From contig JAEOSL010000030.1 of the NCBI GenBank assembly GCA_016840385.1, positions 1 through 31,852 on the forward strand: DNA of 31,852 nucleotides, given 5' to 3'. Origin of the DNA: Candidatus Thorarchaeota archaeon. Its GTDB lineage: Archaea > Asgardarchaeota > Thorarchaeia > Thorarchaeales > Thorarchaeaceae. This document shows, piece by piece, positions 1 to 31,852 of this stretch. The notes below the pieces were generated by a model. It made no database searches, was not told where the DNA came from, and saw only the letters and a program-made list of their open reading frames with translations. The number at the start of each line of letters is the position of its first letter. Positions within the stretch are counted from its first letter, which is position 1. Position numbers and translations under genes: made by a program.

Positions 1-7
1 AACTATA

Positions 8-1048
8 GTGTGTACACCCTTTTTATCAACAGGTGCCGTTCAAGTAGGTGCAGCAGCTTCAGGTCTAATTGTAGGTATTTGGTTTGTAATCTTAGCAGGT
101 GCATGGTATAAAAGAAGTAAAGACAATCTTCTCTGGTCATTAATTACTACTGGTCTTAGCTGGATACTACTTGGAGCTGTAATTTCCCAAATGTCTCAGG
201 CTGCAATGATTCCATTTGCAACATTGACTTGTATTCTATTGTTCTTTTTTTCCTACAAATTCATAGAGCTAAATCCAGAGACTTTCATTCCGATTCCTCG
301 TTTGACAGCTGCTGAGGTTATTCCAGAATATCAACAACAATATCCATACGTTGTTGAACCAAGGAGAACAGAACCGAAATCTTTAGACTCAGGACAGACT
401 TTCCAACCACGTTTCTGGCGTAGTTGGAAAGGAGAAGTTATTCGGGCAATAGCAGAAGCAAGAACTCCGCTAACTTTGAATGAGATTGCTATAAGATCAA
501 AATTGGATTCAGACAAAGCACTAACAGTAATTAAAGAGCTCCATGATCTTGGAGTCATTAGATACGAAAGTGACCACAAGTATTCAGTTGAACGTGGATT
601 ATATCGCGAGTATAGATCCTACATAGAAGAAAATCAGAGAGATATTCCAGATTATACTCAACCAGCTCCAGCACCTCAGAGAACTGGTGGACATAAGCAT
701 CGAACAAAAAATGGTGAGATGGTGCGTTCAAAGAGTGAAGTGATAGTGGCTAATACATTGGCACGGTTAGGTCTCTTCTACGAATATGAGAAGAAACTGT
801 ACAATCCAAATGATAGAACTGACTACATACTGCCTGATTTTACTATTCGTCACAATGGAAGAGAATTCTATTGGGAGCATTTGGGCATGCTTCAGAATCC
901 TAAGTACAAAGCAAAGTGGGAATGGAAGATGACATGGTATAGTAAATGCGGATATGGATACATAATCTCCAGAGATGGATCTGATGGAAGTATAGACGCT
1001 CAGACAATTGAGGCGACTGCAAGGAACAGAATATTACAATCAATTTAG
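8..1048 (+). CDS. Membrane-anchored winged-helix protein with PD-(D/E)XK nuclease domain (possibly 5'-partial)
   Basis: The N-terminus holds about three hydrophobic segments (roughly residues 15-33, 42-60 and 66-85). A winged-helix-like region follows at about 138-200, and then a C-terminal domain at about 235-346. That domain has the pattern RSKSE (E244), LPDF (D277) and YWEHLGM (E290), followed by KAKWEWK. This is the PD-(D/E)XK nuclease module often found at the end of UvrD-like helicases, here without a helicase. Expected activity is DNA cleavage or binding at the inner face of the membrane, which is inference. The GTG at 8 is the first start codon visible, but the frame is open to the window edge, so the real start may lie upstream. 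The next gene is convergent, with a spacer of about 50 bases carrying repeat copy 1. The nuclease family call is fairly sure; the biological role is unknown. Confidence 0.75.
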   Translation: MCTPFLSTGAVQVGAAASGLIVGIWFVILAGAWYKRSKDNLLWSLITTGLSWILLGAVISQMSQAAMIPFATLTCILLFFFSYKFIELNPETFIPIPRLTAAEVIPEYQQQYPYVVEPRRTEPKSLDSGQTFQPRFWRSWKGEVIRAIAEARTPLTLNEIAIRSKLDSDKALTVIKELHDLGVIRYESDHKYSVERGLYREYRSYIEENQRDIPDYTQPAPAPQRTGGHKHRTKNGEMVRSKSEVIVANTLARLGLFYEYEKKLYNPNDRTDYILPDFTIRHNGREFYWEHLGMLQNPKYKAKWEWKMTWYSKCGYGYIISRDGSDGSIDAQTIEATARNRILQSI

Positions 1049-12231: not shown

Positions 12232-12296
12232 TTTAAAGTCATCGGTATTTGCACAGAATTGGTCTAGATATCTTCCACAAAATCCCAGAGTGAAGT

Positions 12297-12305
12297 GTTT
12301 AAAAC
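12297..12305. repeat. GTTTAAAAC motif at the downstream end of the first tnpB
   Basis: GTTTAAAAC lies 8 bases outside the tnpB stop and is the inverse of GTTTTAAAC found twice beyond the other end of the gene (14069-14077, 14162-14170). It may mark the element's end. Confidence 0.35.
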
Positions 12306-12312
12306 CCATATC

Positions 12313-14052
12313 TTACAATTGTGAGTGAACTGTAAGAGACTCCTGTGTTTCACATTTCTCACGACTGCTGTCACCAGCCTCCGATAGAACGGAGTCTTTC
12401 AAAGTGTCATGAGCTTTGCCCCTCTTCACTGGAACATCGTTCCTCCGATGGGACCCGGCTTCTGTCCGCTGCATCGATTCACACGCACCAGATGGTGTGA
12501 TAGCAGACGGTGTTTCCACAGCATTTACCATGGCAGGGTCTTCACTCCTCGCAGTAGATTCTGTAAGAATCATCTGGTCATAAGAGTCGGCCACGGACTC
12601 CCCTGTCGAGGCTGGCGTCCTCTGGGGGAGTGCGGACTTCCCATGAGAAGAACGAGTCTTCCTCCGGGCTTTCAGTATGGCCCTATCCTTGACGGTGAGC
12701 CACATCCCTAGTCCGTTCTCATTCCTCAGTGAGGGGATGAGCATAATAAGGCGCTTCCCGATGTTGAGAGCACCATTCAGGTCGGCATTTGTCTTCAATC
12801 CACAGGTGGTACAGATGAAGAGGTTCTGTCGGGGTCTCTGTCCTTTGTGTCCGCACTTGTGACACATGATAGAGGTCCATTGCTCTGGGACTGCAAGATA
12901 TCGTTTGGTATCAAATCCAAGAGAAGCAAGCTTGTGACCTAGCATCTCACGAATTCTCGCAAAGGCCCAGCGATGGATCATCCCTCTGAACCTTCTTCCT
13001 CGATAGTTGCCTTTTCGAGCAGCATTTCTGATACCCTTCAGTTTGCCAATTGAAACATAGAGGTCATAGATCTCGGTCATTTTGTTGATGTAGTCCGAGA
13101 TATCTCTGATCAATTTCTTGTCAAACTCTCTACTGACACGCTCTCTCTTTCCACTTAGATCCCTGAGCTGGGCAGTTACTCTATCAGGATTCTCCCCTTT
13201 GGTAATGAGCTGTTCCTTCTCGTATTGCAGGGAAGCAACCCGCTCATCAAGTGTCTTCATCCGCTTAAGCTTGTCCTCCTGTTTCCAGTAGCGAACCTGT
13301 CTGTAGCCCTTTCTTGTGAGAAGGACGGAGCAAGCAGTCTTCTTTATCCCAAGGTCGATCGATAGTACAGCAGGAGGTCTTCCAGTAGAATCGATTTTTT
13401 CAATAGCGAGCGTCACCGTAAAGATTACCCACCATTTTCTATTGGAGTCCTTGAAGATTCGAACTGTCTTGACCTCTCCCTCTTTCATCTGATTGAGATG
13501 ATAAGAAGAGATAGAGAGGGGAATCATGAGTCTATCGTGTCGTACTCGACCCTGTGATATCGAGTCCAAGGAGTTTCTAAGTTTCAACCAGTGACGAATC
13601 TCAAGCTCCGGTGTATACACCAGCTTGAAACGCTGAGTAAATGCAAATCGCGGGATCTTTCGGGTTGAGTATCCTTTTGTCCTAAGAGGTTTAGAACCCC
13701 CTCGTTCTAGATAGCTCTGCCACATGGCAATAGCTGTATCTCGACACTCCTGAAACTCATTCACAGAGATGTTCGGAAATCTAACCTTGAAGTCATGGGG
13801 AACATAACTTCTGCTAGCCTTACCCTTGGAAGCTGTCAGGGTGAGTTCTTCCAACTTTGAAGTATTGATTCTTGTCTTTTTCTTCCCTGTCAGCAATTCG
13901 TCTTCATACCGTTCAATCACTCCAAGATAGGCCTTGATGACCCTACTATCTCTCCCAGTAATCCGGTTGAGACGAGTCTTCTGTCTATCAGTCATGGAGT
14001 CCCAATTTATCGGGACCTTAACACTGATTATCGTACCCTTGGAGCGACCCAT
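12313..14052 (-). CDS. tnpB: TnpB RNA-guided nuclease (IS605 OrfB family) with rearranged RuvC site
   Basis: 579 residues, longer than the usual 370-450. RuvC-I is LSIDLGIKK (D233). At RuvC-II the usual IxxEdLkgI motif reads YVSIGKLKGIRNA, so the catalytic Glu is Gly336. A Glu (E390) sits instead in VPEQWTS just before the zinc ribbon CHKCG...CTTCG (C397/C400/C414/C417). RuvC-III is NADLNGALNI (D424). A G at RuvC-II plus E before the zinc ribbon is the rearranged-site arrangement seen in some archaeal TnpBs, so it may still cut. The last 140 or so residues form a polar, low-complexity tail. Its DNA probably doubles as the guide (omega) RNA region. Confidence 0.88.
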   Translation of the reverse strand: MGRSKGTIISVKVPINWDSMTDRQKTRLNRITGRDSRVIKAYLGVIERYEDELLTGKKKTRINTSKLEELTLTASKGKASRSYVPHDFKVRFPNISVNEFQECRDTAIAMWQSYLERGGSKPLRTKGYSTRKIPRFAFTQRFKLVYTPELEIRHWLKLRNSLDSISQGRVRHDRLMIPLSISSYHLNQMKEGEVKTVRIFKDSNRKWWVIFTVTLAIEKIDSTGRPPAVLSIDLGIKKTACSVLLTRKGYRQVRYWKQEDKLKRMKTLDERVASLQYEKEQLITKGENPDRVTAQLRDLSGKRERVSREFDKKLIRDISDYINKMTEIYDLYVSIGKLKGIRNAARKGNYRGRRFRGMIHRWAFARIREMLGHKLASLGFDTKRYLAVPEQWTSIMCHKCGHKGQRPRQNLFICTTCGLKTNADLNGALNIGKRLIMLIPSLRNENGLGMWLTVKDRAILKARRKTRSSHGKSALPQRTPASTGESVADSYDQMILTESTARSEDPAMVNAVETPSAITPSGACESMQRTEAGSHRRNDVPVKRGKAHDTLKDSVLSEAGDSSREKCETQESLTVHSQL

Positions 14053-14066
14053 TCATTTCACCTGAA

Positions 14067-14172
14067 CCGTTTTAAACTTCTGACCTTTCTCTTTCGAGTT
14101 CACTCCCATCCTTATCCCCAAGAATGGTTATGTACTCCTACTCTTTTCTATTACACAACCCGTTTTAAACTT
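14067..14172 (+). repeat. 13-base direct repeat CCGTTTTAAACTT
   Basis: Exact copies lie at 14067-14079 and 14160-14172, upstream of tnpB. The 80 bases between hold no ORF I can support. They may be nested insertion boundaries or the left end of the tnpB element. Confidence 0.45.
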
Positions 14173-14251
14173 ATTAAGCAAAATACTGATATTATTCTAT
14201 TCCAGAAATAGATGTATTCTATAACACTAGTCAATTTGCAAACAGATTATA

Positions 14252-14267
14252 ATTACTTATAAGTAAT
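14252..14267. promoter_or_regulatory. Perfect 16-base palindrome containing the TATA box of the giant-protein operon
   Basis: ATTACTTATAAGTAAT is fully self-complementary and its centre CTTATAAG is the best TATA box upstream of ATG 14303. The distance gives a leader of about 17 bases. A dimer bound here would exclude TBP, so the operon is probably repressed. Confidence 0.6.
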
Positions 14268-14302
14268 AGTACATACTGATAACAAGCTAGGTTGAGTTCA
14301 AA

Positions 14303-14542
14303 ATGAATAGATTTTCGTGTTTTATGGACCCCGCCACACATTTTCCAGACACTACTAGATGGCCCAGAGATGCATTAGAAACCCATTATTTCGCCTTTTG
14401 GAATGAGATAATTCCTGATCTACAGGGTTATAGGGTCCACCCCGTTAAAACATTCTGTATGCCCGTACACAATAAACAAGATTGCTATGTACAGGTGTAC
14501 AGAAGGGATAAAATACTATGTGCGTCCGTACAGAAGATGTGA
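14303..14542 (+). CDS. Small protein, first gene of the giant-protein operon
   Basis: 79 residues, no family recognised. It is rich in aromatic residues and His and has four Cys (C6, C52, C61, C73), the last three after residue 50. There is no obvious signal peptide or helix-turn-helix. It is supported by its position behind the palindromic promoter and by the six-base gap to the next gene. It could be a small regulator or antitoxin-like partner, which is speculation. It ends with two consecutive TGA stops. Confidence 0.5.
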   Translation: MNRFSCFMDPATHFPDTTRWPRDALETHYFAFWNEIIPDLQGYRVHPVKTFCMPVHNKQDCYVQVYRRDKILCASVQKM

Positions 14543-14548
14543 TGATCA

Positions 14549-15202
14549 ATGTCTTTACGATTAGAAACCCACCCAACTCTAGATGAGATTGAAGAGTTCA
14601 GAAGATCCGAGTCCACCACGATATACATCAAGAGCCCTATCATGCAAGGAGCGGCTGGACTTTTGATTGGGTCCGTCTGGCGTGCAGACTATTCCGATAG
14701 ATCAATCCGTCTACTAAATTTGAACCTTATCTCGCATTATGAGAAGGTTCCTCTCACTCCCTTTGCTATCCCTGATAGACATCTTCGTGCTATTCGAAAG
14801 ATTGGAGCAGCATTATTCAATGTGCAACGATTTGATAGATTATTCTTTATTGACAGGTCTATTTCATCAACAGGTTATATCGTCAATCGAGATAACGAAA
14901 CTCGTTTGTTTCTTGATCGCATGGATGCAGAATTGTATGTTTCCCAGACCGGTGAAAGAGCAGAGATAGCGACCCAACCACTCACTAAGAAGACCTCCCG
15001 CAAGGCTCAGAAGAATAGTGCAGAGATTCGGACTGAGATACTTCGGCTAATGACTCAGGTCATGACCGGGATGAGTGCATTGAAGCAACTCAAGGCTCTG
15101 AAGGAACGGGGTATAGAACTCAAAGAACTAGAGAAGATCTGGCGTGATGCACATGAACAAGACAATCTCCCAGCTATCCTTGGGACACTCCTCTACGAGT
15201 AA
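14549..15202 (+). CDS. Unknown protein, second gene of the giant-protein operon
   Basis: 217 residues, no family recognised. The first 135 or so are mixed alpha/beta with patches such as IYIKSPIMQGAAGLLIGSVW and RLFFIDRSISSTGYIVNRD. A Lys-rich stretch (LTKKTSRKAQKNSAE, about 144-158) leads to a helical C-terminus with heptad-like Leu spacing (MSALKQLKALKERGIELKEL), likely a coiled coil or protein-contact helix. The giant downstream gene begins inside its last 56 bases, so the two are co-translated and likely act together. Base composition is higher in G+C than in the flanking housekeeping genes. Confidence 0.7.
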   Translation: MSLRLETHPTLDEIEEFRRSESTTIYIKSPIMQGAAGLLIGSVWRADYSDRSIRLLNLNLISHYEKVPLTPFAIPDRHLRAIRKIGAALFNVQRFDRLFFIDRSISSTGYIVNRDNETRLFLDRMDAELYVSQTGERAEIATQPLTKKTSRKAQKNSAEIRTEILRLMTQVMTGMSALKQLKALKERGIELKELEKIWRDAHEQDNLPAILGTLLYE

Positions 15203-18200
15203 GGAACAGAAAACTCCCGGTAAGAGAGTGGTCCCAGCGCAGCCTGCAAAGGTCTTAGCTGCTGCAATCTACTCCGGGTTGGCAGCTTTGGTCCGGCTTG
15301 CTGAACGGCGAGTGACCAGAGACCCAGAGGTCATCAGATTATTTACTGAGATCAAGGAGATGTGGGAAGAGGCTAGCACTGAATATAGACGCCTGAAGAA
15401 GACTGGTGTCTTTGATTTCTCAATCATCTTGAACATTGAGCACAATATGAGAAAGAACTACCTTGGAATGCTATGGTACACAACACGCCCCTTTGGTAAC
15501 ACAGAGTTCAAGCGAGTCTATCGATGGAGAGATGGTACTATTGGCCCACTCAATGACCTCCTCAACTTCGCAGGAGCTGAACTGAGAACAGTTGCCACTA
15601 AGTACTACAGCTTTCCCAAAGTGAAGTACTATCAGGTCCGAGAATACTCGAACAAGAAGATAGAGATACTCCGTAAGAGTATAGCAGCAAAGTACCCTCC
15701 GAAGAAAGATGCAGAGGTTTTGTGGACCGCGGCCTATCCGGGAAACTCAAAGCATCCACTTGTCCGCGTTAGACACTCCACCCTTCCCGAGATGGACTTT
15801 GTGGACATGATACGTGCTCATGTGATTGAGCTGGTCCGTCAGTGTTTCATACACAACGTCCCAAAGACATCTTCAAGGAGATACATCAGACTCCTCATCT
15901 ATAGGCTGCAACCCTTCCTTGACTGGGTGTATACTGATGGTGTTATGGGGAGAGGAAAGTTCTGGCCCGATGCAGACAAGGTCCTTCGTGAGATTGTCTT
16001 GGAGATTCGTACCAGATACAGTGAACGCTTAGGAAGGACTCCTCGACTCACTCAACAGATTGAGTCTAGTCCAAGGAAACCCACGCTGGCTGATATAGTG
16101 ACTCAGATCAATAAGGCTTACAGACAAGACACTTCTGTAGAGATGATGAAGACTACCACTGAGCTTCTGAAGCTGATGGGTCATTCTGTGAACAAGAAGA
16201 GAAAGACTCTGACCCTGAGGTCAGATATCTTACCTGCGATGAAGAAAGCGCTCTCAAGACTTGCTAAAGATATGAAGTATAAGATGAGAGAGGTCGAGGA
16301 GTTCAAAGAACCCATCACACCAGCTCTTACTGATGATGATGCACAGGACCTCTATGACCACATTCTGCAGGTCTCACAACGAGAGGGAAATGACTGGCAC
16401 AGAGTACTCTTTGGAGATATGTTCCATCCGTCCTCTCTGCGACAGCTTGTCCATGCAGGAGATAACTTTCTGGATGCGCCCTCGGAATACTTGATCGCAG
16501 CAGAGGTTCCTGTGAAGAGCATCTCCGGGAGTGGGCAGGCAGATATTGTAGTGTCAGTACGACGCTCCGTAGCAGGAGAGATTCTCTTCACTCCTATCAT
16601 TACATTTGATGTCAAGACAAAGACCGGGATCAACTGGACTATGCGAGGAAAGCGACCTCGAACGAAGAAGGATGACTCACGGGTCCCAGGGTTTGATGTT
16701 CGGAAGAGAGCTTTGACTTCCATTGAATGGTCACGAATAGTCAATAGTACCCCAACTCCCTTAGAACGCACCCAGCTTCAAAGCTACGAATCAGGTCTAA
16801 TAGAAGAGTATGCAGAACTTGTGAAACAAGACCCTGACCGTCCCAAGACCCTCTGGAAGGGAATCGTGCTATTGGACAGTGATGAGGATCGTGAAACCCT
16901 GTTCACCCTCCTACCTGAGCTTGTGAAATTGGTCATCAGCGATCTGAAGACTGGTACTTCTCCAGACGAACGAACTCTGTACACCCTCAATTCGAAGGGA
17001 GTTCGTAAGAAATGGCAGTACAAGTTTGGCATAGTCTTACTTCCATCAAATGGACCACAACATCTGCTTGAGAATACCAGACCCCTTGAATCCGTCACTG
17101 AGGATGACCCCTTCAGAAACAGGGTCAAGGATGATGTCCACTTCACACTATATCTGACGGTTCCCTCCGGAGGGTCTTCTGGTGAGTCAGCAGCATGGAT
17201 ATCTCGTAACTGGCATCTCTTACACTATCTGTCTGAACTTAGAGAGTCTTCAGAAAGACAGAACATCAAGTGGTTAGACCTTACCGGGGAACTCACAGAG
17301 ATCTGTGTGCGTCTTCAACGACTTCGTCTAGTCGGAGACCAGAAACCAGGAAAGTTATCAAGACGGAGACTAGAGCGCTTTCACCACCTTGCAGAAGAGA
17401 TCGAATTCCATGACTTGAGTAGCAACCTGAAGGAGTACTTTTTCTCGAATGTTACCACTGGCATTAATCAACTTGAAGCACAGATAAGAGAGTGCATCCA
17501 ACAGGCATCAGAGGAAAAGTCGATCATTGTCATAGATGGCTGGTCCCAGCTTAGAAAAATCATCCCCTCTCACTTGGACTCATTACTGAAGACCTTAGAA
17601 CATAGGATCATCGAGTGGTTGCCAAAGAAAGCTGCGGAGATCATCTGGCTTGATAGACCAGTTCCTGTACCAATACTGTCCGCCACCTATCAACTGCACA
17701 GAGTGACTCCACTCCCTCACGACTCACCCAGACGGTTACTCCTTGATGAGGTCATCTGGAACCTCCCGACATCCCCACGAAACTTTGGATGGAGAACCCC
17801 TCGAAGGGAGGACATCAGAGTCATAGTCCAAGACATTCCCACATCCAATGAGCCAATGGTGCAATCCTTTGGAGTTCCACACCTAAAGGGATGGGCCCGG
17901 AGGTTCCGAGCAGACTCGAAGAAGGAGCGGATTGTTTCTGTGGAAGAGGTGTTTGGTGATAGCGAGACCTATGGGCGTTCCTTCTATGCTACCTCCTATG
18001 TAGAAATAGGGCACGACTCCAGAGAGGCAGTGCTTGACGATATCTATCAGCTGGTACCGAGTCTGAGCAGATCCCGTAATACAGAGAAGAGATCTTCAGA
18101 TGAACCATCGGAGAACGATTCTCAAACAAAGTATAGAATGAAGAGTCAGGTCCTAGGGACTTCTTCTTCTTCAAAGGGGATATGGAACAGAGTGTCCTTC

Positions 18201-20084
18201 ATTCAAAAACACCAAGGACCTTCCCTTGGTCGACCGGGCACATATTCATCCATTGAGGACATCACCAGGGGTAAGGTCAGGAAACCCTCCAGAAATATCC
18301 CAGTGATAAAGAAAACATCGCGACGTCCTCCAGTGGTACGGCCGACCCCTGTAGATGAAATAGACACAAAACAGACCCGACATGATGAGGTCCTTCGGAT
18401 TCAGAGAACTGCAGAGTTCTTGCTAAAAAGGTGTGACCGTCATGATGCGTCCTTACATGGTGTTCTAGAGAATACCATCAAGCTTTGTAAGAAGTATCAG
18501 AGGGGAAAGAGTACAACCATTGATACCTTTGACCAGCTACAGAAACTCTATACCAGACTTGAGTGTTCACTGAACCTCTGGAAGGACCTTTCGTATGAAC
18601 GAAGATTCGGAAGCGGTCGTGAACAGGCCCCTCGAAGTATAATCCCCGTGGTACAAAAACAACCCGAGCTTCTCACCCGGTATGGCATCCCTCTCTTCCT
18701 GTTACTCCTTGGGGTGATGAGAGAGGCTAACTCTGAGTCCTTGAAAACTCATGTACCTACCCTTTGGAGCGCAGTGGCTGACTGGCAATGGGTGCACATG
18801 GGTTTCAATCCCCGGGTAGATCAACAGGGACTGGCACAGCATAGATTCGACATTCCTGCTCTATGGTCAAACCTTCTCTGGAGAACACAACAGCTACTTT
18901 CAGGACCAGTGAAATCTAGGCTCTTTGAGAGTCACAGGATTGGTGAACTGATTCCAAGGGGTGATGGTGAAGTATGGTTGGTCTTTCAGGAAGAGCCAAT
19001 GAGTGATAGGATGATTGCTGGCCTTCTCACCGGAATCAACATGACTGCTCCATTACGGGGTACTTATGAAACAATAGTAGACCTGGGTGAACTAGCAGAT
19101 TCTATTGATTATACTCTGCAAGAATCCTCTAGTGAACGACAGACCATTATCATCACTCGATTTGATGGGATGGACCACCTCTGGGTAAAGCATCTGGAAG
19201 ACACTGATGATTCGGATTGGACGCTCATTGGAAAGATAAGATACAGAGCACCAAAGGATGGAATGAGTGCTCCAATCAGAGGGGTCACTGTTTCCGGGGT
19301 ACCGAAAAAAGTCATTGAAAGGCTACCATTACCTGATGATGATGTCATTCCCTCGGACCTCAGAGAACGAGTGGATAAGTGTCTGAGACAGATAGTTGGC
19401 GATGTAGGCTCAGTTCAATCAGTGCATGTCAATGTCACTATCAATGAAGAGTCGGGTTCGTATCTGGTCCAACTGATGGGCCCGAATGAGGAACTTATGG
19501 AGGAACCAGAATATGGAACTACTGAGGAAGTGATCGGTGTCTTACGAAGTCCGATGACAAAGAGAGGCTATTATCAGGCCGAGGATGGAGGCCAGTATTC
19601 TTGGAATCCCCTGAAGGATGTCTCGTATGAAGAGGTCGAAATAACAAATGGGCGGTTGAGTCTTACCTTCCTTCGACCACGAGTGGAGAATACGCGATTT
19701 CTCAATGGAATGTATGTCCTTCCGAGGACTGCACGGGAAGTCATTGAGAGTGAGTTGGGTGAGGAGGTCGTCATGGTGGCAACACCGGATCTTGTCCGAT
19801 ATAAGAAGGACTGGAAACGGTGCTGGAGTGTCTTATTCACGAACACGGATGTTGGAGAGGGACTGCGCCAAATGGAATATGTGATCTGTACAATCTATGA
19901 TATTGCACTGCTCTTTGAATGTGAGCAGATATTCAATGTTGACATGAATAAACGACATCCAACATGGACATCAGTCAACCATCTGACTAAGATCAAGATT
20001 CCCGATGAACTTATGCATCGAAGTCGAATGGGATCGAATCTGGAGGTCAGTGCCCTCAGTAAAAGGGATAGGTTATCCTTTTAG
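15147..20084 (+). CDS. Giant protein (about 1645 residues) with PD-(D/E)XK nuclease signature
   Basis: No overall family recognised. Residues about 430-495 look like a PD-(D/E)XK domain: a leading helix (LRQLVHAGDNFLDAPSEYLI), then GSGQADIVV (D about 466), and 22 residues on FDVKTK (D about 488, K about 490). Near 792-798 IIVIDGW resembles a Walker B strand, followed by EIIWLDRP and LLLDEVIW, but no Walker A is present, so any P-loop-like fold would be inactive. Residues about 965-1075 are a polar Ser/Arg/Pro linker. The C-terminal 570 or so hold no named domain. There are no transmembrane helices. ATG 15147 or ATG 15153 are possible starts, both inside the upstream gene. G+C is visibly higher than in ychF next door. 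Flanking TnpBs suggest transfer. A defence effector is the favoured but unproven reading. Confidence 0.8.
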   Translation: MHMNKTISQLSLGHSSTSKEQKTPGKRVVPAQPAKVLAAAIYSGLAALVRLAERRVTRDPEVIRLFTEIKEMWEEASTEYRRLKKTGVFDFSIILNIEHNMRKNYLGMLWYTTRPFGNTEFKRVYRWRDGTIGPLNDLLNFAGAELRTVATKYYSFPKVKYYQVREYSNKKIEILRKSIAAKYPPKKDAEVLWTAAYPGNSKHPLVRVRHSTLPEMDFVDMIRAHVIELVRQCFIHNVPKTSSRRYIRLLIYRLQPFLDWVYTDGVMGRGKFWPDADKVLREIVLEIRTRYSERLGRTPRLTQQIESSPRKPTLADIVTQINKAYRQDTSVEMMKTTTELLKLMGHSVNKKRKTLTLRSDILPAMKKALSRLAKDMKYKMREVEEFKEPITPALTDDDAQDLYDHILQVSQREGNDWHRVLFGDMFHPSSLRQLVHAGDNFLDAPSEYLIAAEVPVKSISGSGQADIVVSVRRSVAGEILFTPIITFDVKTKTGINWTMRGKRPRTKKDDSRVPGFDVRKRALTSIEWSRIVNSTPTPLERTQLQSYESGLIEEYAELVKQDPDRPKTLWKGIVLLDSDEDRETLFTLLPELVKLVISDLKTGTSPDERTLYTLNSKGVRKKWQYKFGIVLLPSNGPQHLLENTRPLESVTEDDPFRNRVKDDVHFTLYLTVPSGGSSGESAAWISRNWHLLHYLSELRESSERQNIKWLDLTGELTEICVRLQRLRLVGDQKPGKLSRRRLERFHHLAEEIEFHDLSSNLKEYFFSNVTTGINQLEAQIRECIQQASEEKSIIVIDGWSQLRKIIPSHLDSLLKTLEHRIIEWLPKKAAEIIWLDRPVPVPILSATYQLHRVTPLPHDSPRRLLLDEVIWNLPTSPRNFGWRTPRREDIRVIVQDIPTSNEPMVQSFGVPHLKGWARRFRADSKKERIVSVEEVFGDSETYGRSFYATSYVEIGHDSREAVLDDIYQLVPSLSRSRNTEKRSSDEPSENDSQTKYRMKSQVLGTSSSSKGIWNRVSFIQKHQGPSLGRPGTYSSIEDITRGKVRKPSRNIPVIKKTSRRPPVVRPTPVDEIDTKQTRHDEVLRIQRTAEFLLKRCDRHDASLHGVLENTIKLCKKYQRGKSTTIDTFDQLQKLYTRLECSLNLWKDLSYERRFGSGREQAPRSIIPVVQKQPELLTRYGIPLFLLLLGVMREANSESLKTHVPTLWSAVADWQWVHMGFNPRVDQQGLAQHRFDIPALWSNLLWRTQQLLSGPVKSRLFESHRIGELIPRGDGEVWLVFQEEPMSDRMIAGLLTGINMTAPLRGTYETIVDLGELADSIDYTLQESSSERQTIIITRFDGMDHLWVKHLEDTDDSDWTLIGKIRYRAPKDGMSAPIRGVTVSGVPKKVIERLPLPDDDVIPSDLRERVDKCLRQIVGDVGSVQSVHVNVTINEESGSYLVQLMGPNEELMEEPEYGTTEEVIGVLRSPMTKRGYYQAEDGGQYSWNPLKDVSYEEVEITNGRLSLTFLRPRVENTRFLNGMYVLPRTAREVIESELGEEVVMVATPDLVRYKKDWKRCWSVLFTNTDVGEGLRQMEYVICTIYDIALLFECEQIFNVDMNKRHPTWTSVNHLTKIKIPDELMHRSRMGSNLEVSALSKRDRLSF
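20061..20082 (+). terminator. Hairpin across the stop of the giant-protein gene
   Basis: AAAAGG-G-ATA-GGT-TAT-CCTTTT forms a nine-pair stem with one bulged G and a three-base loop. The TAG stop begins in the last stem base. Archaea terminate mainly at T-runs, so this may be an mRNA 3'-end structure and not a terminator. Confidence 0.35.
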
Positions 20085-20128
20085 TGGCAAATCTTACATT
20101 TTGCGTTAGTAATTTAGAAAATTGTAAG

Positions 20129-20136
20129 TGTTTATT
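20129..20136 (+). promoter_or_regulatory. Possible TATA box for ychF
   Basis: GTTTATTT lies about 47 bases before the chosen start. GGAG at 20167-20170 is a fair ribosome binding site, nine bases before ATG 20180. Confidence 0.35.
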
Positions 20137-20179
20137 TCTTGGTATAACAATAGAAGAAGTACTACTGGAGAGAAATACA

Positions 20180-21397
20180 ATGGGATTCAGCGTAGGAATT
20201 GTAGGAAAACCATCATGCGGAAAGACATCATTCACTAACGCAGCTTGTATGACGGATTTCAAAGTTGGTAGCTATCCATTTACAACAATTGAAGCGAATG
20301 TTGGAGTGACTCATGTAAGAACTGCCTGTGCATGTGCTGATTTTGATGTAGAGGATAATCCTCAGAATTCGATATGTATTGATAGAGTTCGACTAGTTCC
20401 AATCAAGTTGATTGATGTTGCTGGACTTGTTCCTGGAGCTCACGAGGGTAGAGGAATGGGAAACCAATTCCTAGATGATCTCAGGCAAGCAGATGTATTG
20501 ATTCATATTGTAGATGCTAGTGGAGCTCTTGATTCAGAAGGACAAGAGATTGATGCGGGCACTCAAGACCCAGCTGAAGATGTAAGATTCCTTGAGGAAG
20601 AACTAGTGGAATGGATGCTGGGAATTGTGAAGAAAGACTGGCGAAATCTGACAGGTCGTGTGAGGTCAGAGGGAGCTAAGCTAGATGAATTACTTCTGGA
20701 GAAACTTTCAGGTTTGAAGATTACCAGAGCGCACATTCTGATGGCTCTGAGAAAGTCGGATATGAAAGCTGAAACTGTTGACAAGTGGACCGATGACGAA
20801 ACGAGAGACTTTGTCAAAATACTCCAACAGACTGCAAAACCAATTATCATTGCAGCAAACAAGATTGACAGACCCGGAGCCGAAGAGAATTACAAACGAC
20901 TGCAAGAGGAATTCCCTGACTACATGATTGTTCCTGTAAGTGCCTTAGCTGAGAAAGTACTCAAAGATCTGGAGCAGAAAGGTGTAATCAAATATATTCC
21001 TGGAAATGATGATTTCGAAATTATTCAAGAGGATAGTTTGAAAGAGGCTGAATCTGCACAATTGGAGAAACTGAGGGAAAATCTTCTGAAAAAGTATGGT
21101 GGAACAGGAGTTCAAAATATCCTCAATAAGGCTGTTTTTGATTTCCTACATATGATTACAATTTATCCTGTGCATGATGCGAATGCGCTCACTGATAGCG
21201 ATGATAATGTTCTTCCAGATGTATTCCTAGTTCCAGATGGAACTACCGCCAAGGAGTTCGCAGGTCATATTCATACAGATCTAATGGAATCGTTTGTGCA
21301 TGGTATTGATGCCAGAACAAAGATGAGAATTTCAGACAAACACGTTCTCAAGGACAGAGATGTAATCAAAATAGTGAGTGCTAAGGGACAAAAATAG
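20180..21397 (+). CDS. ychF: YchF/Obg-family GTPase with C-terminal TGS domain
   Basis: About 405 residues. G1 is GKPSCGKTS directly after the initiator MGFSVGIV; G3 is DVAGLVPGAHEGRGMGNQF; G4 is NKID. The insert between G3 and G4 is the long helical domain typical of archaeal members. The C-terminal TGS region (DVFLVPDGTTAKEFAGHIHTD through DRDVIKIV) follows. It is a ribosome-associated nucleotide hydrolase of the translation machinery. The frame is open back to 20084, but ATG 20180 is chosen: GGAG lies upstream and family members start at MxxxGIVGKP. It follows the giant operon directly with lower G+C, so it marks the return to the core chromosome. Confidence 0.95.
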   Translation: MGFSVGIVGKPSCGKTSFTNAACMTDFKVGSYPFTTIEANVGVTHVRTACACADFDVEDNPQNSICIDRVRLVPIKLIDVAGLVPGAHEGRGMGNQFLDDLRQADVLIHIVDASGALDSEGQEIDAGTQDPAEDVRFLEEELVEWMLGIVKKDWRNLTGRVRSEGAKLDELLLEKLSGLKITRAHILMALRKSDMKAETVDKWTDDETRDFVKILQQTAKPIIIAANKIDRPGAEENYKRLQEEFPDYMIVPVSALAEKVLKDLEQKGVIKYIPGNDDFEIIQEDSLKEAESAQLEKLRENLLKKYGGTGVQNILNKAVFDFLHMITIYPVHDANALTDSDDNVLPDVFLVPDGTTAKEFAGHIHTDLMESFVHGIDARTKMRISDKHVLKDRDVIKIVSAKGQK

Positions 21398-22672: not shown

Positions 22673-23969
22673 ATGAGCTTTTATGCTCTCAACAAAACCA
22701 TATACCGAACCTGAATGTTGACCAATAAGGCCTACAGGTATGAACTGGACCCCAACAACATCCAGAGGTCATCCCTTGCTCAACATGCAGGAGTAGCTCG
22801 TTTTGCTTACAACTGGGGTCTCGATCAGCGGATCAACCAGTACAAGAACAATCAAGGTGACGACCGATTCACTGATGCCATCAAGCAGCACAAGCACCTC
22901 AATTCACTGAAAAAGTCCGAGTTCCCTTGGATGTATGAAACCTCAAAGTGTGCACCTCAGGAAGCCCTGAGAGACCTCCATCGAGCCTTCCAGAACTTCT
23001 ATCGAGGACTCAAATCTGGGAAGAAGGTCGGATTCCCTCGAATCAAAAGGAGAGGAGTCAGGGATAGCTTCAGACTGACCGGAACCATCAGTTTCCATGA
23101 GCGGGCAATCCAGCTCCCACGAATTGGAAAGGTCCGTATCAAGGAGAAGAGGAAGTGCTACTTCAATGGAAGAATCCTCTCAGTAACTGTACGACGACGA
23201 GCTAACCGGTGGTTTGTGTCTGTCACTGTGGAGGAGGACATCATTGACCCTAAACCGATACAAGGAGCACCAGTGGGAGTGGACCTGGGAGTGAAGACCC
23301 TGGTCACACTCTCTGATGGCACCACCTTTGATAACCCACGAGCTTTGGGAAGACGAATGAGGAAACTACGAAAGTTACACAAATCGCTATCAAGAAAGAG
23401 GAAGGGAAGCAAGAACCGCGAGAAAGCCAAGCTCAAACTTGCTAAGATGTACCTGAGGGTCTTCAACATCCGACAGGACACACTGCACAAGGTGACGACC
23501 TACCTTGCCAAGAGCCACAGTAAGGTAGTGATTGAGGACCTGTTAGTGTCAGGGATGATGAAGAATCGAAGATTAGCGCGAGTCATTGCAGATGTGGGGT
23601 TCTACGAGTTCAGACGGCAGCTGGAGTACAAGTGCCAGTGGTACGGTTCTGAGCTTATCGTTGTTTCGCGAACATTTCCTTCATCGAAGCTGTGTTCACG
23701 GTGTGGGCATAGGAAGAAGGAGCTCTCTCTGTCAGAGAGGGTGTATGAATGTGAACAGTGTGGGTATGAGATCGACAGAGATCTCAATGCTGCACTGAAT
23801 CTGGTCGCCGTCAGTTTGCCGGAGACTGAAAACGCCTGCGGAGAGGAAGTAAGACATAGCAAATCTTCCGAGATTTGTAATGCCGCCTCTATGAAACAGG
23901 AACCGAACATCATTCCAGACTCAATGTCCAAGAATGTCTAGGTTTCGGGTAACGGTCGTCAAGTTTAAG
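22673..23969 (+). mobile_element. IS200/IS605-type element carrying canonical tnpB (approximate bounds)
   Basis: A lone tnpB. Upstream is a small hairpin GAGC-TTTTAT-GCTC (22675-22688), a typical place for a left-end stem. Downstream CGGTCGTCAAGTTTAA ends at 23969 and resembles the right end of such elements. The ends are provisional. There is no tnpA, so movement would need a helper. Confidence 0.45.
22715..23941 (+). CDS. tnpB: TnpB RNA-guided nuclease (IS605 OrfB family), intact
   Basis: 408 residues, normal length. It opens with the usual YRYELDPNN-x(n)-RFAYNWGLDQR. RuvC-I is VGVDLGVKT (D190); RuvC-II is VVIEDLLVSGM (E274); the zinc ribbon is CSRCGHRKK...CEQCG; RuvC-III is DRDLNAALNL (D356). 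All three catalytic acids are present, unlike in the TnpB at 12313. The tail NACGEEVRHS...SMKQEPN is the conserved C-terminal end of this TnpB group, and its DNA overlaps the expected omega RNA. It is expected to cut DNA next to a target-adjacent motif under RNA guidance, helping the element persist. No strong ribosome binding site is seen before ATG 22715. Confidence 0.95.
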   Translation: MLTNKAYRYELDPNNIQRSSLAQHAGVARFAYNWGLDQRINQYKNNQGDDRFTDAIKQHKHLNSLKKSEFPWMYETSKCAPQEALRDLHRAFQNFYRGLKSGKKVGFPRIKRRGVRDSFRLTGTISFHERAIQLPRIGKVRIKEKRKCYFNGRILSVTVRRRANRWFVSVTVEEDIIDPKPIQGAPVGVDLGVKTLVTLSDGTTFDNPRALGRRMRKLRKLHKSLSRKRKGSKNREKAKLKLAKMYLRVFNIRQDTLHKVTTYLAKSHSKVVIEDLLVSGMMKNRRLARVIADVGFYEFRRQLEYKCQWYGSELIVVSRTFPSSKLCSRCGHRKKELSLSERVYECEQCGYEIDRDLNAALNLVAVSLPETENACGEEVRHSKSSEICNAASMKQEPNIIPDSMSKNV

Positions 23970-30266: not shown

Positions 30267-30341
30267 GAACAAGGAACTTGTGTGGTAGAAGCGATTCCAT
30301 TGATTGCAGCCCTATCATCAATATACGAAAGAGGTGATGTC

Positions 30342-31852
30342 TTGAGGAGTGCTGGACTGAAACTCGCGTTTCTTTTGACACTAGTCATAATCTTGACAAC
30401 TGCATCAACTTGCTCCGAGTATCCTTGTCTGAATGCGACTACGAATGGGATTGAGAACACAGGCAGTATGGAACTTGCAGAGGTGTATTATAGGAACACG
30501 CTAGGTACTTCCAATGGTGTCTATGTGAGCGGTGATTATGCTTATGTAGCAGATGGGAGTCAAGGTCTGGCAGTGATTGACATCTCAGACCCCACGAACC
30601 CAGGCACTCCTGTCTATGAGGATACGACTGGCGAAAGCTGTGGTGTCTATGTGAGTGGTGACTATACCTACATAGCAGATGGGAGTCAAGGTCTGGCAGT
30701 GATTGACATCTCAGACCCCACGAACCCAGGCACTCCTGTCTATGAGAATACGACTGTTCAAGCATACGATGTCTTTGTGAGTGGTGACTATGCCTACGTA
30801 GCAGTGTCGCTGGCGGGTCTGGCAGTGATTGACATCTCAAACCCCACAAACCCAGGTACTCCTGTCTATGAGGATACGACTGGTGAAGCATACGGTGTCT
30901 TTGTAAGCGGTGACTATGCCTACGTAGCAATTGGGTCTTCAGGTCTGGCAGTGATTGACATCTCAGACCCCACGAACCCAGGTATTCCGGTCTATGAAGA
31001 CACTAGTTGGTCGGCAGTTGGTGTCTATGTGAGTGGTGACTATGCCTATGTAGCAGATCGTGCTTCAGGTCTGGCAGTGATTGACATCTCAGACCCCACG
31101 AACCCAGGCACTCCTTTCTATGAGGATACGAATGGCGACGCATCGGATGTCTATGTGAGTGGTGACTATGCCTACGTAGCAGATGGTTCAGGTCTGGCAT
31201 TGATTGACATCTCAGACCCCACGAACCCAGGTACTCCTGTCTATGAAAGCACTGGGTCGGCACTTGATGTCTATGTGAGTGGTGAGTATGCCTATATAGG
31301 AGGTTCTTCAGGTCTAGCAGTGATTGACACCTCACACCCCATGAACCCAGGTACTCCTGTCTATGAAAGCACTAGTAGTCCTGCAAGGGGTGTCTTTGTG
31401 AGTGGTGACTATGCCTACGTAGCAGATGCTGATTCAGGTCTGGCAGTGATTGATATCTCAGACCCCACGAACCCAGGCGCTCCTGTCTTTGAGGATACGA
31501 GTACTTATGCATGGGATATCTATGTGAGTGGTGACTATGCCTACGTAGCAGATGAGAGTTCAGGTCTGGCAGTGATTGACATCTCAGACCCCACGAACCC
31601 AGGTACTCCTGTCTATGAAAGCACTAGTTCTGCAAGGGGTGTCTTTGTGAGTGGAAACTTTGCTTACGTAGCAGATGGGGGTTCAGGTCTGGCAGTGATT
31701 GACATCTCAGACCCCACGAACCCAGGCACTCCTTTCTATGAGGATACGACTGGCACCGCTTACGGCGTCTTTGTGAGTGGTGACTATGCCTACGTAGCAA
31801 TTGGGTCTTCAGGTCTGGCAGTGATTGACATCTCAGACCCCACGAACCCAGG
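30342..31852 (+). CDS. Secreted LVIVD-type repeat protein (3'-partial)
   Basis: Open to the window edge, more than 500 residues. It starts with TTG 30342 behind GAGGTGAT (30331-30338), then a signal peptide (KLAFLLTLVIILTTAS) with Cys residues after it. Eleven units of 40-42 residues follow, each of form GVYVSGDYAYVADGxxGLA, VIDISDPTNPGTPVYEDT. They match LVIVD repeats, which form beta-propeller-like extracellular domains in archaea. Units are nearly identical at DNA level. The protein should be exported and is probably attached to the cell surface, for adhesion or interaction; the anchor would lie beyond the window. An upstream in-frame GTG at 30282 is less likely. Confidence 0.88.
   Translation, partial: MRSAGLKLAFLLTLVIILTTASTCSEYPCLNATTNGIENTGSMELAEVYYRNTLGTSNGVYVSGDYAYVADGSQGLAVIDISDPTNPGTPVYEDTTGESCGVYVSGDYTYIADGSQGLAVIDISDPTNPGTPVYENTTVQAYDVFVSGDYAYVAVSLAGLAVIDISNPTNPGTPVYEDTTGEAYGVFVSGDYAYVAIGSSGLAVIDISDPTNPGIPVYEDTSWSAVGVYVSGDYAYVADRASGLAVIDISDPTNPGTPFYEDTNGDASDVYVSGDYAYVADGSGLALIDISDPTNPGTPVYESTGSALDVYVSGEYAYIGGSSGLAVIDTSHPMNPGTPVYESTSSPARGVFVSGDYAYVADADSGLAVIDISDPTNPGAPVFEDTSTYAWDIYVSGDYAYVADESSGLAVIDISDPTNPGTPVYESTSSARGVFVSGNFAYVADGGSGLAVIDISDPTNPGTPFYEDTTGTAYGVFVSGDYAYVAIGSSGLAVIDISDPTNP
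30515..31852 (+). repeat. Array of eleven about 126-base coding repeats
   Basis: The block GGTCTGGCAGTGATTGACAT recurs (with rare changes) at 30564, 30690, 30816, 30942, 31068, 31191, 31311, 31437, 31563, 31686 and 31812. Spacing is 126 in seven intervals and 120-123 in the rest, always a multiple of three. Confidence 0.92.

Follow-up and report, generated by a model that had tools for sequence, protein, structure and literature searches.

In a 31,852-nucleotide stretch of Candidatus Thorarchaeota DNA (the window), a first-pass annotation singled out a three-gene operon that would start at 14252 and end in a giant gene. The three open reading frames (ORFs) do exist, with products of 79, 217 and, for the giant, 1646 residues (about 1645 in that annotation), and the 6-bp gap was given correctly, but the overlap of the last two frames measures 59 bp rather than 56. 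The unit to which they belong begins further upstream, at 12302, includes a divergently oriented tnpB gene, and stops at 20125, just before ychF; its main ORFs are tnpB, the 79-aa ORF, the gene for the 217-aa protein (P217) and the giant gene. Its features are as follows.

12302..20125, no strand: whole transposon, 7,824 bp, delimited by blastn against locus L002, empty sites and the target-site duplication
12293..12301, no strand: left copy of the 9-bp target-site duplication, AAGTGTTTA, present once at the empty site of relatives
12302..12417, minus strand: omega-RNA-like scaffold at the tnpB 3' end, predicted from a covarying stem in 26 copies
12313..14052, minus strand: tnpB, 579 aa, RNA-guided nuclease family with an alternative RuvC-II Glu (E390), from profiles, PDB matches and alignment
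14053..14302, no strand: intergenic region between the divergent tnpB and operon, from the ORF table and sequence
14303..14542, plus strand: 79-aa ORF
14549..15202, plus strand: P217, accessory protein of 217 aa, encoded before or after the giant gene in 10 loci
15144..20084, plus strand: giant protein, 1646 aa, GTG start, a predicted integrase (ORF and alignment of relatives)
20126..20134, no strand: right copy of the target-site duplication, AAGTGTTTA, from comparison of flanks
20135..20138, no strand: target-adjacent TTTC (GAAA on the guide strand), a candidate target-adjacent motif (TAM), from TTC enrichment by right duplications

The limits of the element emerge from comparison with related loci. 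Positions 12301-20102 are matched at 82% (blastn) by L002, from the Thorarchaeota metagenome-assembled genome CSMAG_2458, where the flanks are unrelated. Four loci (L172-L175, from genomes G013, G001, G014 and G006) match both flanks of the window, and there the region before ychF runs uninterrupted, with a single copy of AAGTGTTTA or of a one-base variant, AGCGTTTA or AAGCGTTTA; two more (L176 and L177) agree with the empty site on the right side only. Six of 15 loci were aligned in this comparison, in which the flanks were joined at preliminary limits that differ from the final ones by a few bases. In seven two-ended copies the longest match between the left flank and the right region is 8, 9, 11, 4, 7, 8 and 9 nt, against a maximum of 7 nt among 42 cross pairs serving as a control. 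Among 19 copies from wider subfamilies, nine have a match of at least 8 nt (1.7 expected), five of at least 9 nt (0.28 expected), and ten stay below 8 nt; this set includes the window and L002 again, its left ends were chosen by eye via a motif, and three of the 22 loci named (L036, L041 and L047) were left out as the giant gene is cut there by the contig end. The duplication is 9 bp in the window, with matches of 7-13 nt in other copies.

TTC occurs no more than 5 nt after the right duplication in 8 of 12 copies, compared with a control mean of 0.87, and none of 5000 draws contained any 3-mer reaching 8. The 12 copies come from 13 sites, L097 having no flank; the motif had been noticed before the test, and the control permits any 3-mer. 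Two of the copies, L046 and L156, have duplications that may be due to chance, and TTC is present in both. The enrichment provides independent support for the duplications, and comparison of the copies establishes that insertion takes place next to a TTC motif and duplicates about 9 bp of the target. Read on the guide strand, the motif is GAA immediately 5' of the would-be TnpB target, which makes it a candidate TAM.

The element's left end, AAACCCATATCTTACA, is much alike in close copies and mostly conforms to (A/G)ACCY, and the right end is variable, with the duplication lying 18-85 nt past the start of a AAATCTTAC motif in six copies. No terminal inverted repeats were found in six two-ended copies, at most 5 of the 12 terminal bases being alike and local scores falling within those of shuffles. 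The G+C content of the element is 46.5%, against 41.9% in the rest of the window, and the two sampled lines quoted in the first-pass annotation (34 G/C of 60 at 15241-15300 in the giant gene, 23 of 60 at 20221-20280 in ychF) are exact. Given the target duplication, the empty sites and the many copies documented below, the three-gene stretch can be placed, on comparative grounds, as the larger part of a Thorarchaeota transposon, an acquired and mobile module as had been proposed.

Searches of Pfam, NCBIfam, PADLOC and PDB sequences with the giant protein returned no match at E values up to 1, and PHROGs returned two (E 0.08 and 0.23). Four parts of it can be delineated.

15213..16178, plus strand: Cas1-like domain, residues 24-345, with invariant E99, R103, R124, N137, H211, D218, D221 and R224
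16296..16973, plus strand: RecB-type PD-(D/E)XK nuclease motifs, residues 385-610 (GxxxH, E454, D467, (D/E)xK491, QxxxY)
17133..17882, plus strand: RAD51/RecA-like fold with a degenerate P-loop, residues 664-913
17961..20081, plus strand: C-terminal part, residues 940-1646, model pLDDT (predicted local distance difference test) 80, weakly RNase H-like at about 19410-19697

The N-terminal 320 residues appear to be Cas1-like, a distant relative of Cas1, the integrase of CRISPR (clustered regularly interspaced short palindromic repeats) systems. The Cas1-type residue pattern is invariant in the 54 rows with letters of a 59-row alignment, in the order E-R-N-H-D-D-R, and E, N, D, D and R align with Cas1. 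RecB-type PD-(D/E)XK nucleases share the motif set GxxxH, D, (D/E)xK and QxxxY, which in the giant comprises G415, H419, E454, D467, D/E489, K491, Q544 and Y548, invariant in the 55-57 rows with letters out of 59. The GQADIVV and FDVK motifs on which such a nuclease had first been postulated are indeed there, D467 and K491 being invariant in the 56 of 59 rows with a letter at these positions; the invariant motif set supports such a nuclease, though no nuclease family profile matched the region. Neither the profile nor the cysteine cluster of Cas4 was recovered: comparison with 25 Asgard Cas4 proteins (hhalign) gave E values of 0.17 and 0.12, and the invariant columns contain no Cys. The third part shows a RecA/RAD51-like fold; its Walker A lysine, sought by eye as GK(S/T), occurs in 7 of 59 rows and is absent from the window's protein. 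The C-terminal part, described from the outset as lacking a recognisable family, still has none assigned; W1487 is its sole invariant column in two alignments, and no conserved acidic triad was seen.

The 579-aa TnpB matches NF040570 (guided_TnpB; 108 bits against a cut-off of 100), PF07282, TnpB and Cas12f entries in PDB, and, in PADLOC, Cas12-family models and one Csx1 model. The RuvC acidic triad (D233, E390 and D424) and the four Cys of the zinc ribbon are invariant in the 28 sequences aligned. The canonical RuvC-II Glu position is Gly (G336) in all 28, which raised the suspicion of a nuclease-dead TnpB of the Cas12k or TldR kind; this idea was dropped in view of E390, an invariant Glu at an alternative site within an E-x6-C-x2-C pattern (C397, C400). 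Fanzors and a subset of TnpBs have a Glu so placed before the zinc finger (Yoon et al. 2023, PMC10711439). Since the Glu is invariant at the alternative position, the TnpB of the element is probably active. The left-end DNA is alike across copies even outside the tnpB frame, and an outer stem there has 93.8% paired cells in 26 copies against 75.6% after shuffling, with 39 double-change cells against 11.7 (a level reached in none of 500 shuffles), the stem having been taken from the consensus fold of these same sequences. We therefore predict that the 3' end of tnpB specifies a structured, omega-RNA-like guide RNA. Another TnpB-family gene, of 408 aa, lies at 22715-23941 on the plus strand of the window, and L052 has a similar one.

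The 79-residue gene of the first-pass annotation is probably not a gene, because indels of 21, 9 and 1 nt break its frame in L002, the closest copy, and a search among the ORFs of 63 loci found matches in the window and L002 only.

A protein search with the giant, scoring the best 7,994 candidates, retrieved at least 51 proteins including the window's own, the named organisms all being Thorarchaeota or Promethearchaeati; one further protein, named Lokiarchaeota, came up when a distant member served as query. Matches occur in at least 34 of the 149 genomes examined (at most three candidates were scored per genome), among them G001, with 41 tblastn matches, fragments counted. For 59 loci with a giant reading frame of more than 600 aa we surveyed the neighbourhood; as the loci were collected by the giant, the counts of TnpB next to it run in that direction only. 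TnpB adjoins the giant in 50 of them, comprising 33 of a short and 12 of a long type (by profile) and five long ones assigned by eye from an ORF cluster (L043, L095, L099, L103 and L105). The other nine (L001, L033, L035, L042, L086, L098, L112, L113 and L120) break off at a contig end or close to one, in most cases inside the giant gene or its 5' flank. Three layouts recur. In the 33 short-TnpB loci, the window included, TnpB measures 544-642 aa where it is complete and is encoded divergently from the giant, and no IS607-type TnpA was seen. In 14 loci a long TnpB with canonical RuvC motifs (701-763 aa in complete ones found by profile) is divergent to the giant, and seven of these (L045, L096, L099, L100, L101, L104 and L105) have an IS607-type TnpA convergent with it, partial in L096 and L099. 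The third layout is the row tnpA-giant-RadA-like-P217-tnpB, whole in L044 (with P217 inverted) and partial in L043 and L048. Giants of 1,410-1,430 aa form a branch (L042, L043, L044, L048 and L112) in which a separate RadA-like gene follows the giant, with GGILAGS near its start in L043 and L048, and P217 comes next in four of the five loci.

Internally deleted copies retaining both ends have also spread, as judged from 14 fetched copies in five genomes (nine in G001, two in G006 and one each in G014, G013 and G008). They retain the 3' part of tnpB and about 40 bp of filler, those of sufficient length also the end of the giant gene on its 3' side, and all have one common junction; ten of the 14 alignments continue into the giant part. 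Because such derivatives have spread, the element ends seem to be enough for movement, with proteins supplied in trans. Two derivatives, L160 and L161 (in G014 and G006), lie at the same flank; inheritance from an old insertion may thus account for some copies.

We consider it likely that three components make up this Thorarchaeota transposon: tnpB, which ends in the omega-RNA; the accessory gene for P217; and the giant gene, coding for the integrase that moves the element. The enzyme roles of the two large proteins we infer as follows. The Cas1-like domain of the giant would join the 3' ends of the element to both strands of the target, at points separated by 9 bp; the PD-(D/E)XK domain would cut or trim the element ends, perhaps causing the variation at the right end; and the RAD51-like domain and the C-terminal part would assemble on DNA. 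TnpB is thought to restore IS605-type elements through cutting of empty sites followed by repair. Here RNA extending past the left end, into the flank before 12302, would supply its guide; TnpB may cut the empty site beside a GAA-type motif, and repair would restore the element. A bolder idea, which we put forward tentatively as somewhat doubtful, is that a Cas1-type integrase and the RNA-guided TnpB operate jointly as a natural unit, the integrase inserting next to the motif required by TnpB (GAA on the guide strand), possibly by RNA-guided insertion. Each new copy would in this way direct TnpB against the empty version of its own site.

Several observations would also suit a giant that is not the integrase. 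It carries RAD51-like and RecB-type parts, and an IS607-type TnpA stands beside it in half of the 14 divergent long-TnpB loci, as would suit a homing or repair factor: TnpB would cut the empty site, giant-driven recombination would copy the element in, and primary insertion would fall to IS607-type TnpA or an enzyme in trans. This scenario, which may overlap with those that follow, is unlikely in our judgement, since to our knowledge neither serine recombinases nor recombination-based homing would be expected to leave 9-bp duplications; the 33 short-TnpB loci without a visible IS607 TnpA and the invariance of the Cas1-type residues likewise speak against it. A reading of the operon as defence or anti-element cargo could draw on the resemblance of a big fusion of nuclease- and ATPase-like parts to defence proteins, on an operon that is acquired and shifted in G+C, and on a set of loci which, gathered by the giant, does not by itself establish that the element needs it.

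One might also suppose that the N-terminal domain is a helical DNA-binding one with a chance likeness to Cas1, strand transfer being left to the RNase H-like stretch of the C-terminal part or to the PD-(D/E)XK domain. We regard this as quite improbable, given the invariant E-R-N-H-D-D-R order and the alignment of E, N, D, D and R with Cas1 on the one hand, and a C-terminal part with W1487 as its sole invariant column and no acidic triad on the other. Least probable, a long shot, is the idea that the operon is such defence or anti-element cargo on a TnpB transposon, one of the options in the first-pass annotation: none of the three operon proteins matched PADLOC at E values of 1 or below (defence genes in the vicinity were not looked for individually), the recurrent neighbours of giant copies (P217, RadA-like gene, IS607-type TnpA and TnpB) are of mobile-element type, one genome holds 41 matches, the Cas1-type residues are kept in each row with letters, and ends-only derivatives have spread, as would follow from a moving enzyme encoded in the deleted part.

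The proposed integrase-bearing transposon shares with casposons a target duplication and, provided that the Cas1-like domain is what it appears to be, a Cas1-family integrase in a mobile element; Cas4-like nucleases are encoded by some casposons (PMC9939771, PMC6452270). Casposons, however, have a family B polymerase, whereas Pfam found no polymerase in tnpB, the 79-aa ORF, P217 or the giant; they have terminal inverted repeats, which are lacking here; their duplication is about 15 bp, as in the A. boonei casposon (PMC9939771), and not about 9 bp; and the Cas1-like domain here sits inside a 1646-aa multidomain protein, with TnpB adjoining in 50 of 59 loci. As in IS200/IS605 and IS607 elements, the tnpB 3' end is an omega-RNA-like element end, and some relatives have an IS607-type TnpA by the giant; the target duplication and the giant protein are differences, and neither a Y1 nor a serine transposase family matched any element product, nor did tblastn find IS607 TnpA in the window. 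With the TnpBs resembling Fanzors (Ealt; Yoon et al. 2023, PMC10711439) the element's TnpB shares the Glu shifted to E-x6-C-x2-C before the zinc finger, but its RuvC-I motif is DLG and not DPG, and it is archaeal and paired with a giant. Aloposons (Wu et al. 2022, PMC8813620) are likewise Asgard transposons with giant proteins, but their tandem 3,000-6,000-aa proteins, ParA-like gene and tRNA-gene integration have no counterpart here. No tRNA was found in the joined window flanks. A 2020 study by Makarova et al. in CRISPR J (3:156) reportedly treats diverged Asgard Cas1 homologues, some tied to mobile elements, which may include the giant family. An essay citing it (PMC8730458; it is also cited in PMC9939771) mentions Asgard Cas1 homologues, some possibly with novel mobile elements. 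Three other loci (L222:6038-10126, L223:6769-10776 and L224:4973-8941) encode proteins of 1,323-1,363 aa that resemble the ARAMP systems mentioned in PMC8730458; they have an N-terminal helicase look (by eye), match the Cas1 family further along the one reading frame, and adjoin two proteins of about 270 aa. In searches of open-access literature on Asgard or Thorarchaeota Cas1, casposons and TnpB, no title or abstract start among the papers listed describes the present element.

Elsewhere in the window, the C-terminal part of the open frame at 2-1048 (plus strand), with RSKSEVIVANTL ... DYILPDFTI ... EFYWEHLG, has the look of a further small PD-(D/E)XK endonuclease domain. A repeat protein with DPTNPGTPVYE...SGDYAYVAD repeats is encoded at 30282-31850 (plus strand), and L002 has a related long repeat protein.

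In current scenarios casposons are the source of the CRISPR adaptation module, and a separate kind of element, TnpB transposons, that of type V effectors (PMC6452270). The transposon described here places apparent relatives of Cas1 and TnpB side by side in one multi-copy Asgard family, so that it becomes directly testable whether target rules can be common to a Cas1-type integrase and TnpB. Many giant Thorarchaeota 'hypothetical proteins' gain a likely role, as a new integrase candidate, and, should the bolder idea of a joint integrase-TnpB unit hold, the family would represent, in living form, the encounter of casposon-like with TnpB-like parts that lies behind type V CRISPR.
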